Source: Sacculina carcini (Eukaryota > Arthropoda > Thecostraca > Sacculinidae). From it: DNA of 64,000 nt. The stretch lies in NCBI GenBank assembly GCA_916048095.2, contig OU696572.1:12251664-12315663 (forward strand), in the 5' to 3' direction. The position numbers and the translations under genes were made by a program. Shown in pieces: positions 485 through 59,905 of the stretch. Each line of letters starts with the position of its first letter. The first letter of the stretch is position 1. The notes beneath the pieces are model-generated. The model ran no database searches. It was not told where the DNA came from and saw nothing but the letters and a program-made list of their open reading frames with translations.

Positions 485-2085
485 GCGAGACACCGCTCGA
501 GCCCAAGTTTGATATTCTGCCGCTGGGCATGGCGATGGACTACCGCGTGTGGGTGGAGCCTGGTCGCGAGGACTGCTACTACCAGTTCGTGCAGGCGGGC
601 GCACAGTTTTACGTCAGCTTCCACGTCAGTCTTTCCTCGTGTGTGTCTGTGTGCCACGTGCTCAAGTTCAAGTTTATATTTTTTACACCAGCAAACCATA
701 AATAGCATAACAACAATAAATAAAGAAAGTCTGCTGAGACATTGCCTCTTTTGCAGACTTGTGTAATAATGATAATTTTGTTCCAACATGAAATATTGAC
801 AAGCGATTAAAAATTATTATATATATGTATATATAATAATTATGTATTATATAACATGCTATAATATATGTAGATACAACGACAAAACAATATATCCAAA
901 TACACAATTCATAATATCTCACACAGACATTGAATGCATTTCTGGCGATGATGTGTGTGTGTGTGTGTTGGAGCGCTGTTTAGACTCCCACATGAGAAGC
1001 GCCATACAGTTATCTTACTGTCTGTCTGTGTGTGTGTGTATGTGTGTGTGTCAGACGTTGCGTGGAGGCGATGGTATGGCCGGATATGCAGTACGTGACC
1101 CCAACGGACATCTGGTGCATCCTTACCAGTTGAAGAAGGAGTCCGAGTACGAGACAACGCAGGAGCGCGCCGGTTATTTCAGTATCTGCATTGATAACCA
1201 TTACTCAAAGATGGCTGGCAAACTGGTCAACATTTACATCACGGCGTTCAAGTGAGATCTCGATCTCGATCTTGATCTCATCGCTCACTTGTTCACCGCC
1301 ACTTCAGTCTTATTCATGTGTTCGCTTTTCTCTGCCTCATATTGTTCGTGTGTGTTGTGTACACATGTGTCCCCAGCAGACAAATGCATCGCCGAATTGC
1401 AATTATAATGCAAGCACTATCGTTTGCTGTTGGCTCACAGCGGATTTACATCTCAAAATTTCACTCATTTCATCCCAATCAGCTGTTTTTGTGCCATAAA
1501 ACTGTATTAATTATGACTAAATGTGTCAATGTGTGTGTGTGTGTCAGGTACGATGAATGGGACAAACACACGGATGAACTGGCCGAGTATGACGTGGTGG
1601 CAGCCAATTTCACTGTAAGTCCGTGTGACAATGTGTCACGTGTATTGTTTTATTTTTCCTATTTCTTACTGTTTGTATTCTCTCTCAAGATCGGCTTCAC
1701 AGATTCTCCTCGTTTTTCTCGCCGTCTGTCAGCCAGACTTGGTCTCACATCAGCGCTTGTGTGTGTGTGTGTGTGTGTGTGTGTGTGTGTGTGTGTGTGT
1801 GTGTGTGTGTGTGTGTGTGTGTGTTGTGTGTGTGTGTGACAGGAGGGCCTGGGCATGGTGGATCACAAGATCCAGATAGCACGCCAGTATTTGAGTCACT
1901 CGCGATCTCAGGCGGCCGCCGACTGGGCGCTCTTATCGTCCAACAACTGGTACGTGTTGATGTGGTCTGTGATGCAGTGTGTGGTGGTCGCTATCACCGG
2001 CTCGCTGCAAGTCTATTTCGTGCGCAAACTGTTCGATACCGGCGGCTCCAGTGCCTCCGGCGGTAAGACAAGACCTCGCATATAA
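485..2085 (+). CDS. TMED/p24 family cargo receptor, TMED6-like, 3' exons (partial)
   Basis: Last four exons of a p24 protein: 485-624, 1055-1251, 1548-1614, 1843-2085 (stop TAA). Phases join cleanly. p24 proteins are type I membrane proteins of COPI/COPII vesicles acting in ER-Golgi cargo transport. The visible part has a GOLD domain (DYRVWVEPGREDCYYQF, then GDGMAGYAVRDPNG and GYFSICIDNHYS), a short coiled-coil-like stretch, one transmembrane helix (WYVLMWSVMQCVVVAITGSL) and a short cytosolic tail beginning YFVRKLFD. The PPG/EPG-x-x-(D/E)C start of the GOLD domain and the KLF tail resemble TMED6 more than other p24 members as I remember them; the subfamily call is tentative. The signal-peptide exon lies left of the window. 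Donors are GTCAGT, GTGAGA and GTAAGT. The three acceptors after the first visible exon are (TG)n followed by CAG or ACAG. Confidence 0.85.
1757..1838. repeat. (TG)n microsatellite at a TMED 3' splice site
   Basis: About 80 bp of almost pure TG directly before the ACAG acceptor of the last TMED exon (1843). It takes the place of a pyrimidine tract. Confidence 0.9.
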
Positions 2086-3770
2086 CACGTGTATGTGTGT
2101 GTGTCGTACTACAAGCAGGAAATGAGCACAAAATTGTCCGGCGATAAGTAATTATATTGTTGCTGATCTTCTTGTGGTTTCAGCTGGGTGATTGTGTGTG
2201 CATGACTCTTAGTTTTACGTGCGTCTATTTCTTCTAGTATTCGTGCGCGTTCTCCTGATTCTTATATGTTCGTGAGAGTCTGTCGTTCTTACTGTGTTTG
2301 TGTGTTGGCTCGTGCATGCTTCCAATTCGTATATGTGGCGGCGCGGTACTTTTGTCTTGTTGTGCGCGTGGCTAATAGCGTGCTATTGCACGTGCGACGG
2401 CATTCGACAGCGGATTGCCGGAACAAATGGAGCATCTCCGTTTGATCGGTCGATTGCGCCTGTGTTGTGTATTGGTGACGGTTTTTACACATTTCAATGG
2501 CCAGTTTTATAGAATTATTCCACTCTTATAGGTTTATTTTATTCAGTGGTTTGTTATTGTCACTTTTGTTGGTTTTATGCGATGTATTGAATCAGCTGCG
2601 ATCATGTCACTTAAACGTGCACTGTTTCACTGTGTTGACTCAACGAATCAATAGTTATCAATGATTGGACTTGAATAGGACTTTGAATTGCTGCTTTGCC
2701 ACCAGATGATCTACTCCCACTGCATGTTGTCATATGTCATCCGGGTATGGTTCCAGGGGGGCTCGGGGCTGAAACCTCCCCCCCATGTTTCTATCAACTC
2801 CTCATGACTAAGAGATCAGCAACAAATATCTTGCTGTAGAATTTGTCTGTAGCATTATCGCACATTATTGTGTGTGTGTAAATGTGTGTATATACTTGAA
2901 GAATGCCTCAAGTGATGACCTTCACACGATACCTAGTCACTCATACATAATTCAGCCTCCCCAAATCGCACTCTGGATCGGCTACTGGTATAATTCGAGT
3001 GCCTCCCTGTGAACACCTGGCTGAATTGTTGGAACAGGGTCCACATACTTCAACTCACTCGGATAATTGTGCGCGGGAGAAGGGAGAAATATGTACACAT
3101 CACACACACACACACATACAAATATAATGGTCATGACAGCGGACAAAATGCCAACACCGCAATTCGTCCAGCACTCACACAAGTGATATTACACAACACG
3201 ACACGGTGTGGGTTCCGACGACCTCGGTGATTGGTCGACAGCGCTGAACTTTAGCCAATCAGCGTGCTTGTGGGCGGACCTGACTAGCCAGCAAGCGCTC
3301 TGATTGGTTGATACAGTCCACACGAAATATCAACACCAAATGCGTGCGCCAATCACACGCGAGATCGCTCACAACCACACAACATGATAACAACATACTT
3401 CACAATGCCACACACATACATATAGGATGATGGACGCGAGAAAACAAACAGGTACAAATACATTGGCTGCACACACACACACACACACACACACACACAC
3501 ACACACCACGTATCTGTCAATTATCGTACAAATTAAAACAACATCCCAGACCAACAACACACACACAATATAAATACACGTGCAGAAGCGAGCTCGTGGA
3601 GAGTGCCGCAAGCACTGTCCATCATCACACACACACACGTACATGTCAAGCAAATTGGCGACATCCAGCATTCAAACACTCACTCACACTAGGAATTTGA
3701 CAGGGAAGCGATCAGCCCCAGTGAACACGGACAGTGAGAGTCAGTGTAGCGCGCGTGTGTGTCGGGGTGG
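2086..3770. other. Intergenic region between the convergent TMED and CTDNEP1 3' ends
   Basis: About 1.7 kb holding the 3' UTRs of both genes. I see no coding exon. It contains a (CA)n microsatellite (3471-3506) and a CCAAT/GC-box cluster, listed separately. No clear AATAAA was found for either gene. Confidence 0.6.
3230..3353. promoter_or_regulatory. Cluster of four CCAAT boxes and one GC box
   Basis: ATTGG at 3230-3234 and 3303-3307, and CCAAT at 3255-3259 and 3349-3353, alternate in orientation around GGGCGG at 3272-3277. This spacing resembles NF-Y promoters. No gene start is apparent beside it, so a promoter role is inferred only. Confidence 0.4.
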
Positions 3771-58509: not shown

Positions 58510-58548
58510 ACACAAGATACAAAACACTGAAGCAGCTGCGGCACAATG

Positions 58549-59905
58549 TCACGAGCCTTGTGCCGCGTCGATGACGTTTCTGAACGTGCCGATTGTCTGT
58601 TTGGCGAGCCGCAATCGCTCGCGCATTTGTTCCACCTCCAGTTGCAGCTGGCGCCGGGCTCGCTCAATGGCAGTCTCGGTGTCGACTCGCTTCTTCTCGA
58701 AGTCGGTGTCGTGTCGGTGTGTGCCAGTCAGTGAGAGCGCGCGAGTCGAGTTCAGTAATTGCTGCTGCATTTGCGACGGATCCTGCCACCACACACACAC
58801 ACAATGTGATGATAGTTTTGTTGAGAGGGGAGATGCCGCACTACATATGCAGGTGAATTTCCGCGTGAAAGCAAGTGTGATGAATGATGTTCTCGCCTGA
58901 AATATCAGCTCGTCGTAATACTCGCACACCAGTTGCTTGTGAGGGCCGATCACCACGGGAGCCGGCGCGCCTCCAGACGCGAACAACTTCAACACGTGAT
59001 AAATGCTCACCTACACACACATGCGCACGCGCATATCAGTGTGTATGAGTGTGTAGTTATGCCAGTGTGTAAATGTGTGTGAGTGTGTAGTTATTTCAGT
59101 GTGTCAATGTGTGTGAGTGTACGAGTTTATGAGTGTGTGTGTGTGAGTGTCACCGGTCGTTCGTTGACATCTTGAAAGAACAGTTTGATGTTGACCTCAA
59201 ATTCGCCCCAGCCTGTCTCCGAGACCTCGTAGGGCGGCTTGGTGACGATGCGCGTGCTGTTGGCATAGCTGTCGTGCAATTTGAACTGCACTTTCTTCAC
59301 GTACACCGACATGTCCTCGTTCCTACCCCCCCCCCATCCCCAACACACCAACCAACAACATATATAAACATTCATTCAAATCACAAGCAAAAACATCTGA
59401 CATTCAACAGTGTGTGTGTGTGTGTGTCGCACTTGTATGGTTTGACATAGACGGTCCACTGATGAGTGTGGCCGTCATCCTCCCGTCTCTTGCCAAACGG
59501 CCGCGACAAGTTGCCGTAGACGATCGGCTTCACAATGGTCACTCCCTGGCACAGCATCACAAACACACACACTATGATAGCGTGTAACATCGGTACAACA
59601 GTGGCGAGTAAATAAGCCTTGTCGCTGGACTGGCGACTGCAAGGATTTCGTGGTAAACTAACGTCGTCTAGTGGTGAATTGGCGTGCCGACGTTGTTATC
59701 GCAAAAGTTTGCAAAATTGATTCCACTCGAACATTCGTAAGTCGGCTGTATTTCTAGGCCAGGCATAAGAAACACACCATTTCATTCAGTCAAATATACA
59801 CGCATATGCATTATTGTGTATGTGTGTGTGTGAAAGAACCACCTTGATTCTTCCGCTCTGCTCGGCAACTGCAGTCGAGGAGGACTGATCGTCATTGGAG
59901 GCCAT
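58549..59905 (-). CDS. YEATS4: YEATS domain-containing 4 (GAS41), complete
   Basis: Five minus-strand exons, 5' to 3': 59905-59843, 59545-59433, 59322-59154, 59010-58897, 58782-58549. They total 693 nt, giving 230 aa (human 227). YEATS4 reads acetylated or otherwise acylated histone lysines within the SRCAP and TIP60/p400 complexes and promotes H2A.Z deposition. The YEATS domain spans about residues 20-140: [53 protein letters not shown] and ETGWGEFEV, including the Trp of the aromatic cage. A C-terminal coiled coil follows ([17 protein letters not shown]). Exon 1 ends GRIK before GVTIVKP, matching the human GRVK/GVTIVKP boundary, which fixes the start. The fourth intron begins GC, not GT (CAG|GCGAGA), and ends AG. 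Sense-strand (CA)n lies at the 5' ends of introns 1-3 and (TG)n at the 3' ends of introns 1, 3 and 4. Confidence 0.95.

Follow-up and report, generated by a model that had tools for sequence, protein, structure and literature searches.

In most animals, a tract of C and U precedes the acceptor of an intron, and this polypyrimidine tract and the factor U2AF2 are counted among the textbook constants of animal splicing. Among the closest described systems, the AC/GT introns of fish and lamprey have ends that pair with each other and spare U2AF2 (Lin et al., Genome Res 2016, via PMC7404189, PMC9198270 and PMC12636285; works cited here by PMC number are drawn on in excerpt). REPAG 3′ splice sites are purine-rich, carry G tracts between the pyrimidine tract and the AG, and go with alternative exons (PMC6339879). 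In Fritillaria borealis, where U2AF is duplicated, introns break the GT/AG rule and have A-rich ends to which a divergent U2AF2 binds (PMC13326754). The TG repeats upstream of CFTR exon 9 are bound by TDP-43, causing exon skipping (PMC12171016). Here we describe the introns of five neighbouring genes in a 64,000-nucleotide (nt) stretch of the genome of the arthropod Sacculina carcini (assembly GCA_916048095.2, contig OU696572.1, positions 12,251,664 to 12,315,663 of the forward strand; hereafter the window), in which a G/U tract occupies the place of the polypyrimidine tract.

An original prediction, made from the letters of the window, held that CA repeats follow the donors and TG repeats precede the acceptors of these introns in a strand-aware way, and that the two complementary ends could pair and loop out the intron. 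The precedent that it named, the AC/GT introns of fish and lamprey, is real (PMC7404189, PMC12636285). We consider it probable that the 3′ splice site is marked not by a polypyrimidine tract but by a tract of G and U, in most cases a run of UG dinucleotides whose end lies some 7 nt upstream of the exon; CA bridging as a general rule was rejected on tests of position, swapping and shuffling, association and expected base pairs.

Intron set and gene models

Forty-three introns were placed by hand, with open frames and homology as the guide; they belong to a p24/TMED-like gene, KDM6A and SIN3 on the plus strand, and to YEATS4 and a CTDNEP1-like phosphatase gene on the minus strand. The spliced frames are open to their terminal stops in KDM6A (17 introns), SIN3 (17), YEATS4 (4) and the p24/TMED-like gene (3). 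Pfam searches with single exons bore out the families and strands, with matches to JmjC, KDM6 C-helical, TPR, Sin3a_C, PAH, YEATS, emp24/GOLD and, in two exons, NIF; one of the nine gene exons given, the first PAH exon of SIN3, had no Pfam match. We take the gene names to follow from these families together with known homologues.

Our intron numbering agrees with that of the original prediction for KDM6A, SIN3 and YEATS4 introns 1 to 3, to which a fourth YEATS4 intron is added (58783..58896, minus; apparently GC-AG, CAG/GCGAGA, closing with TG). With this single GC-AG intron, the set has a GT donor in 42 of 43 cases, and an AG acceptor and C or T at position -3 in all 43. Only bases within TGTGT/GTGTG or CACAC/ACACA were counted as tract. 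An intron is said to open or close with a tract when at least 10 nt of it fall in its first or last 100 nt (for openings of short introns, in the first half).

A G/U tract in the place of the polypyrimidine tract

Of the 43 introns, 36 close with a TG tract on the sense strand and 6 with a CA tract. Among the 23 introns of at least 300 nt, the TG fraction rises from 0.101 in mid-intron to 0.283 over the final 100 nt (p = 9e-5). The concentration is sharpest immediately upstream of the splice site. Specifically, TG tract makes up 0.58 of the 20 nt before the true YAG and 0.05 of those before 443 other intronic YAGs, a control that omits SIN3 intron 4 and KDM6A intron 3, whose YAGs are dominated by minisatellites (0.23 at all 692 YAGs when both are included). 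CA tract accounts for 0.5% of the 20 nt before the YAG; in mid-intron its fraction of 0.099 is level with that of TG.

A perfect (TG)3 or longer run lies within the last 120 nt of 40 of the 43 introns; in 37 of the 43, it ends no more than 20 nt from the exon. Across those 40, the last such run has a median length of 12 nt, and its end a median distance to the exon of 7 nt. The tract follows the strand of the gene: sense TG tract amounts to at least 6 nt of the last 100 nt in five of the six minus-strand introns.

The same region shows no enrichment of pyrimidines. The 20 nt before the YAG have a G/T content of 0.87 versus 0.53 at the 443 other YAGs, whereas their C/T content is at background (0.53 versus 0.52). 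Furthermore, no pyrimidine run of at least 8 nt occurs in the last 40 nt of any of the 43 introns: per intron, the longest run there measures 3 nt in the median and never more than 6. Because these acceptors are 87% G/U, with pyrimidines at background and no pyrimidine runs, we read them as bearing a G/U tract in the polypyrimidine place: the 43 introns are without a polypyrimidine tract in the usual sense, and the G/U tract occupies its position.

Closing TG tracts are the sole marked end in p24/TMED-like intron b (1252..1547), KDM6A introns 5 (21630..21830) and 10 (25946..30156, mainly minisatellite), and SIN3 introns 2 (44128..44699, donor junction repeated), 3 (44996..45318), 7 (48770..49208), 8 (49680..49772), 12 (54430..54586) and 15 (56346..56691), all on the plus strand, and in CTDNEP1-like intron C_3 on the minus strand (3917..4771), where a minisatellite repeats the donor junction. 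The TG close is weak in KDM6A intron 2 (8067..8201, plus; 7 nt). The exceptions, which lack a TG close, are CTDNEP1-like intron C_2 (5001..5248, minus) and SIN3 intron 1 (43568..43872, plus).

TG tracts before TCAG genome-wide

Pattern counts in the 264-Mb genome extend this polarity beyond the five genes. The pattern (TG)9TCAG occurs 5449 times (2739 + 2710 on the two strands), and the same pattern read backwards 466 times (228 + 238). For (CA)9TCAG the counts are 203 (96 + 107) and, for its own reverse, 58 (35 + 23), so that TG exceeds CA before TCAG by 27-fold. Repeat arrays inflate such counts to some degree: among 100 (TG)9TCAG matches listed, 76 were left after merging those within 1 kb. 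When TG runs were taken from the window plus 270 kb, 185 of 903 had a YAG within 5 nt, versus 89 and 62 in two mirror controls. The spread of (TG)9TCAG is very uneven: of the 100 matches listed, 94 fall within the initial 4.3 Mb of C1 and the other six between that point and 10.4 Mb. This perhaps follows gene density.

A small exon model with the window as its training set was run on a second sample of 250 kb (C1:160001-360000 and C3:12315664-12365663). The C1 part of the sample was picked for its many (TG)9TCAG matches, and exons near N stretches were left out. On its own training window, with a filter for G/T-rich acceptors, 27 of 34 acceptors and 20 of 27 donors were true ones. When the model was run on the sample without an acceptor-tract term at a log-likelihood ratio (LLR) of at least 30, it predicted 41 acceptors. 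G/T content reached 80% or more at 11 of them, and neither C/T nor A/C content did so at any; the corresponding backgrounds are 4.2, 0.7 and 4.0%. A TG tract was present at 12 of the 41 and a CA tract at none. The model is not wholly blind to TG even in this form, since it was trained against TG-rich introns. Because the sample was chosen for its C1 matches and its exon calls are noisy, it is chiefly the pattern counts that speak for generality beyond the five genes.

CA and TG runs at the donor end

The individual introns named in the original prediction bear the repeats ascribed to them. CA opens and TG closes KDM6A introns 4 (10608..21453), 6 (22225..23598, with a minisatellite that repeats the donor junction), 11 (30330..31016), 13 (33061..33348) and 15 (34249..34801) and SIN3 introns 9 (49896..50329), 10 (50568..53777, mainly minisatellite) and 14 (55837..56180), all on the plus strand, and YEATS4 intron 1 on the minus strand (59546..59842; TG close of 10 nt). 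The other named introns also open with CA, and their TG ends, although present, fall short of our 10-nt threshold in KDM6A intron 7 (23862..24719, plus; 6 nt) and YEATS4 intron 3 (59011..59153, minus; 9 nt). YEATS4 intron 2 (59323..59432, minus), credited with the CA end only, closes with a G run, its TG tract amounting to 6 nt. KDM6A intron 12 (31847..32854, plus) opens with both CA and TG and closes with TG.

As a rule, CA opening did not hold up. CA opens 13 of the 43 introns and TG opens 17, KDM6A intron 12 being counted in both. The original prediction had correctly named KDM6A intron 3 (8683..10498) and SIN3 intron 4 (45443..47795), each TG at both ends, as exceptions, but the total of TG openings is 17 and not two. 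The others that open and close with TG are p24/TMED-like introns a (625..1054) and c (1615..1842; 81 of the last 100 nt), KDM6A introns 9 (25277..25846), 14 (33745..34111), 16 (35132..35342), 17 (35470..36421, donor junction repeated) and 18 (36593..36851), and SIN3 introns 5 (47984..48090), 6 (48416..48532), 11 (53993..54150), 13 (55383..55642), 16 (57039..57146) and 17 (57343..57818); KDM6A intron 8 (24985..25173) opens with TG and has a weak TG close of 5 nt. All of these TG-opening introns are on the plus strand.

In the 23 introns of at least 300 nt, the CA fraction of the first 100 nt (0.157) is not significantly above that of the middle (0.099; Wilcoxon p = 0.27), and CA and TG do not differ at the 5′ end (p = 0.99). 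CA falls to 0.037 in the last 100 nt, which differs from the first 100 nt (p = 0.005 in the 23 introns, p = 0.001 in all 43). This low value is a shadow of the TG rule at the acceptor, and it gives the appearance of a polarity. CA opening and TG closing are likewise not associated, as TG closes 10 of 13 CA-opening introns and 26 of 30 others (Fisher p = 0.66). The strand-aware polarity that had been held to exceed chance microsatellites is thus clear at the acceptor, in both the genome-wide counts and the minus-strand introns, but not at the donor.

Donors of the 250-kb sample give a similar picture. Requiring G/T-rich acceptors yielded 54 exons with 38 donors, of which CA opens 9 and TG 11; pooled with the window, the donors have 22 CA and 28 TG openings (p = 0.48). 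Without the acceptor term, CA and TG open 7 and 9 of 57 donors at an LLR of at least 20, 5 and 3 of 37 at 30, and 3 and 2 of 21 at 50. We regard the CA runs at 5′ ends as mostly part of the general microsatellite load of the introns, with pairing to the UG tract possible in a few, which is no defining trait of the class.

The 43 donors are lax. Position +3 is G in 25, C in 10 and A in 8, and GTCAGT is found in 8 of 43 and GTAAGT in 1.

Pairing between intron ends

Predicted duplex energies between the first (up to) 150 nt and the last (up to) 70 nt were computed for the 43 introns. Own ends reach a mean of -29.1 kcal/mol, which is no better than that obtained with 5′ ends swapped between introns (-30.5, p = 0.26) or dinucleotide-shuffled (-28.5, p = 0.81). 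Mononucleotide-shuffled 5′ ends pair worse (-25.9 kcal/mol, p = 0.018). In the 14 introns of at least 500 nt, mid-intron sequence pairs with the 3′ end as well as the 5′ end does (-34.7 and -34.9 kcal/mol).

Folding of the introns, a check put forward with the original prediction, leads to the same conclusion. Among the 35 introns of up to 900 nt, those that open with CA have 12.5 expected end-to-end base pairs (n = 9) versus 10.1 for the rest (n = 26; p = 0.68), and at least 8 such pairs are expected in 4 of 9 CA-opening introns and 17 of 26 others. Ends and middle are equal in the 11 introns of at least 360 nt, at 6.6 expected pairs each. These results do not support looping-out of the introns by pairing of complementary ends as a general mechanism. 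A few single introns could possibly bridge on the predicted pairing: YEATS4 intron 1, the top case with 35.6 expected pairs, YEATS4 intron 2 (23.1), SIN3 intron 14 (19.6) and KDM6A intron 11 (18.4). When introns were ranked by own versus swapped ends, KDM6A intron 6 came 2nd and YEATS4 intron 1 4th of 43; the best was SIN3 intron 7, which does not open with CA.

Splicing machinery

The U2AF2 model (TIGR01642) scored above its cut-off twice among 31 matches in the genome, at 421 and 412 bits. The two copies are divergently oriented (C26:1035393-1036658, plus, and C26:1032223-1033476, minus), and each consists of one uninterrupted frame, of 430 and 424 amino acids, that covers model positions 61-510 and 66-510. 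The matched parts are without introns, and a separate 5′ exon could encode the first 60 positions. In the light of Fritillaria, where U2AF2 duplication accompanies changed 3′ splice sites (PMC13326754), the pair is suggestive at most.

The canonical 5′ end of U1, complementary to GTAAGT, has 37 genome matches, all of them ACTTACCTGG. The search pattern was the canonical end with one open 5′ position (T or G), which is T in all 37, and variant copies are undetectable by it. The matches are clustered, with 18 at C6:11.22-11.49 Mb, 17 at C10:3.3-4.5 Mb and one each on C4 and C37. An altered U1, a candidate raised by the GTCAGT donors, lost ground given these 37 canonical copies; a narrower U1 pattern had given 0 matches.

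The UG tract is probably read by a protein. Most likely it would be bound as sequence by a protein that brings U2 to an upstream branch point; candidates are U2AF2 itself, if its preference has loosened or shifted, and a partner of the TDP-43, CELF or PUF60 type that binds UG. The UG runs would at the same time serve as an AG-free zone down to the first AG: as they hold no AG, the first AG after the tract would be the one used. A wider proposal is that an animal lineage swapped the polypyrimidine tract for a UG-repeat tract across its genome and re-tuned a factor, either the divergently oriented U2AF2 pair or a recruited UG-binder, while GT-AG termini and U1 stayed canonical. We hold this wider step tentatively, as quite possible but somewhat short of probable.

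Weighing the explanations

Several observations weigh against a G/U tract as the mark of the 3′ splice site. TG-YAG look-alikes inside the 43 introns number 104 beyond the true sites, 81 of them unused sites within SIN3 intron 4. The strict TG-YAG form fits 22 of 43 true acceptors, and the antisense of the introns has 41 such sites. Three introns have no TG run (KDM6A intron 8, SIN3 intron 1 and CTDNEP1-like intron C_2). Outside the window, in the noisy 250-kb sample, where many exons are probably false, only the 11 of 41 predicted acceptors noted above reach 80% G/T, and the pattern counts give no share of acceptors that carry the tract. Because of the 104 unused sites, TG-YAG alone is insufficient, and exon or branch-point signals must therefore contribute; a branch-point motif scan of the KDM6A and YEATS4 introns revealed no clear rule.

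One donor-side result favours the original prediction. Next to strong donors (AGGTNAGT+N4), the genome has 132 runs of 16 nt of A/C and 55 of G/T (p = 2e-8), 8 of the 55 being one local family; reversing the patterns gives 26 and 93. For a genome of 264 Mb, 132 sites is a small number. Scaling from 23 sites in 334 kb gives an expectation of about 138 for each. This unreliable expectation gives no ground to dismiss the A/C excess, because the reversed controls, scaled likewise, should come to 234 and were seen 26 and 93 times. The 132:55 result has two readings, a real CA preference beside strong donors or an avoidance of TG there, perhaps since GTGTGT makes competing donors. An earlier fixed-offset test ((CA)6 17, reversed 25; (TG)6 15, reversed 34) was set aside because it fixed the repeat phase and missed donors such as GTGAGTACACAC, and was replaced by the A/C- and G/T-run patterns. 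A variable-gap test, with 145 forward and 514 reverse matches and controls of 1321 and 378, was likewise discarded, since single repeats were counted many times.

Bridging in most introns on the fish and lamprey model, in which the 5′ CA run pairs with the 3′ UG run and U2AF2 is spared, is an unlikely general explanation. It can draw on the 10 of 13 CA-opening introns that close with TG, on the strong predicted pairing in YEATS4 introns 1 and 2, SIN3 intron 14 and KDM6A intron 11, on the high own-versus-swapped ranks of KDM6A intron 6 and YEATS4 intron 1, on the A/C excess beside AGGTNAGT donors, and on the sample donors at an LLR of at least 30 (CA 5, TG 3 of 37). Against it, TG openings exceed CA openings in the window (17 versus 13 of 43) and in the sample (11 versus 9 of 38, and 9 versus 7 of 57 at an LLR of at least 20), own ends do no better than swapped, dinucleotide-shuffled or mid-intron sequence, the best rank goes to an intron without CA opening, CA and TG ends are not associated, and CA-opening introns gain no extra pairs. 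We also think it improbable that the tracts reflect neutral microsatellite drift, in which TG runs grow where GTGT-like seeds and AG-free sequence are tolerated and have no use in splicing. CA and TG runs are abundant in both window and sample, and the TG run varies widely in length between introns, as drift would have it. A working pyrimidine tract would then be expected alongside, which 0 of 43 introns have, and drift does not explain why CA drops to 0.5% before the YAG despite its parity with TG in mid-intron (0.099 and 0.101).

A poly(UG) (pUG) fold, a quadruplex, is very unlikely to be the general cause of the tract. A perfect 23-nt run of (GU)11.5 type, the minimum length stated in the excerpt of PMC12636285, is present in the last 120 nt of 6 of 43 introns, and pUGs are reported to be enriched near human splice sites (PMC12276007). 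The other 37 introns lack such a run, and the median length of the last TG run is 12 nt, although imperfect runs could fold, since the structure needs 12 guanosines and is otherwise flexible in sequence (PMC12636285, a preprint). There is similarly little room for the view that these are ordinary introns whose splice sites were misplaced, or that five neighbouring genes form a local oddity. The sample outside the window is small, its exon calls are noisy, and the splice sites come from open frames and homology; yet the frames stay open through 17 KDM6A, 17 SIN3, 4 YEATS4 and 3 p24 introns, Pfam domains lie on the right strands, and the 27-fold excess of TG over CA before TCAG is genome-wide.

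Minisatellites and other features of the window

Near-copies of the donor junction (-8 to +16) recur down four introns: 10 in KDM6A intron 6 (22225-23598, plus), 10 in CTDNEP1-like intron C_3 (3917-4771, minus), 3 in SIN3 intron 2 (44128-44699, plus) and 2 in KDM6A intron 17 (35470-36421, plus). The acceptor junction is repeated in none of the 43. KDM6A intron 6 and CTDNEP1-like intron C_3 are wholly array, with the junction part of it, because random 24-mers from them are also multicopy (means of 9.6 and 4.75). This arrangement suggests intron growth by tandem duplication from the donor, leaving unused decoy donors. SIN3 intron 4 (45443-47795, plus) holds about 2 kb of TGTGTCAG-type minisatellite, and further kilobase minisatellites lie at 25990-30100 (KDM6A intron 10) and 50950-53730 (SIN3 intron 10). 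A long open frame of a retroelement spans 60880-63999 on the minus strand; a 1500-nt piece of it scored above the curated cut-off for DUF7047 and under it for RVT_1.

Comparison with known intron classes

If a G/U tract does mark the 3′ splice site in this animal, a core splicing signal can be swapped while GT-AG and canonical U1 stay in place, which raises the matter of how such a genome copes with UG-binding repressors such as TDP-43. On the practical side, gene finders that have learned to expect pyrimidine tracts could put acceptors in the wrong place in this genome, and claims of bridging from CA and UG ends need position and swap controls first. In searches of the open-licence literature aimed at UG/GT tracts at acceptors, as covered by the titles and abstract openings listed, we found no report of UG tracts that replace the polypyrimidine tract across an animal genome.

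The introns share with canonical U2-type introns their GT-AG termini, C or T at -3, canonical U1 copies and the presence of U2AF2. They differ from them in that all 43 are without a polypyrimidine tract and their donors are lax. Human pUG repeats come in addition to ordinary pyrimidine tracts, whereas the UG tract here stands instead of one. The two have in common that UG runs are enriched near splice sites (PMC12276007).

Guanines near the 3′ AG recall REPAG sites, in which the pyrimidine tract lies further upstream; here, in contrast, the guanines take turns with U, and the last 40 nt are free of pyrimidine runs (PMC6339879, in excerpt). As in Fritillaria borealis, unusual 3′ splice sites go together with two U2AF2 genes, although GT/AG is kept in the window, with 1 of 43 introns deviating, and the tract is G/U (PMC13326754). 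As at CFTR exon 9, a UG repeat lies directly upstream of the 3′ splice site, but the repeats described here adjoin conserved-domain exons that appear to be constitutive (PMC12171016). The introns resemble the AC/GT introns of fish and lamprey in that a GU-rich repeat lies at the 3′ end (36 of 43) and some introns also have AC at the 5′ end. Unlike in those introns, as the excerpted sources describe them, GU is near-universal in the genes examined, AC is not linked to it, and the ends have no general excess of complementarity. Because the set shows neither an AC end linked to the GU end nor pairing in excess of the controls, we do not file these introns as AC/GT-bridged.

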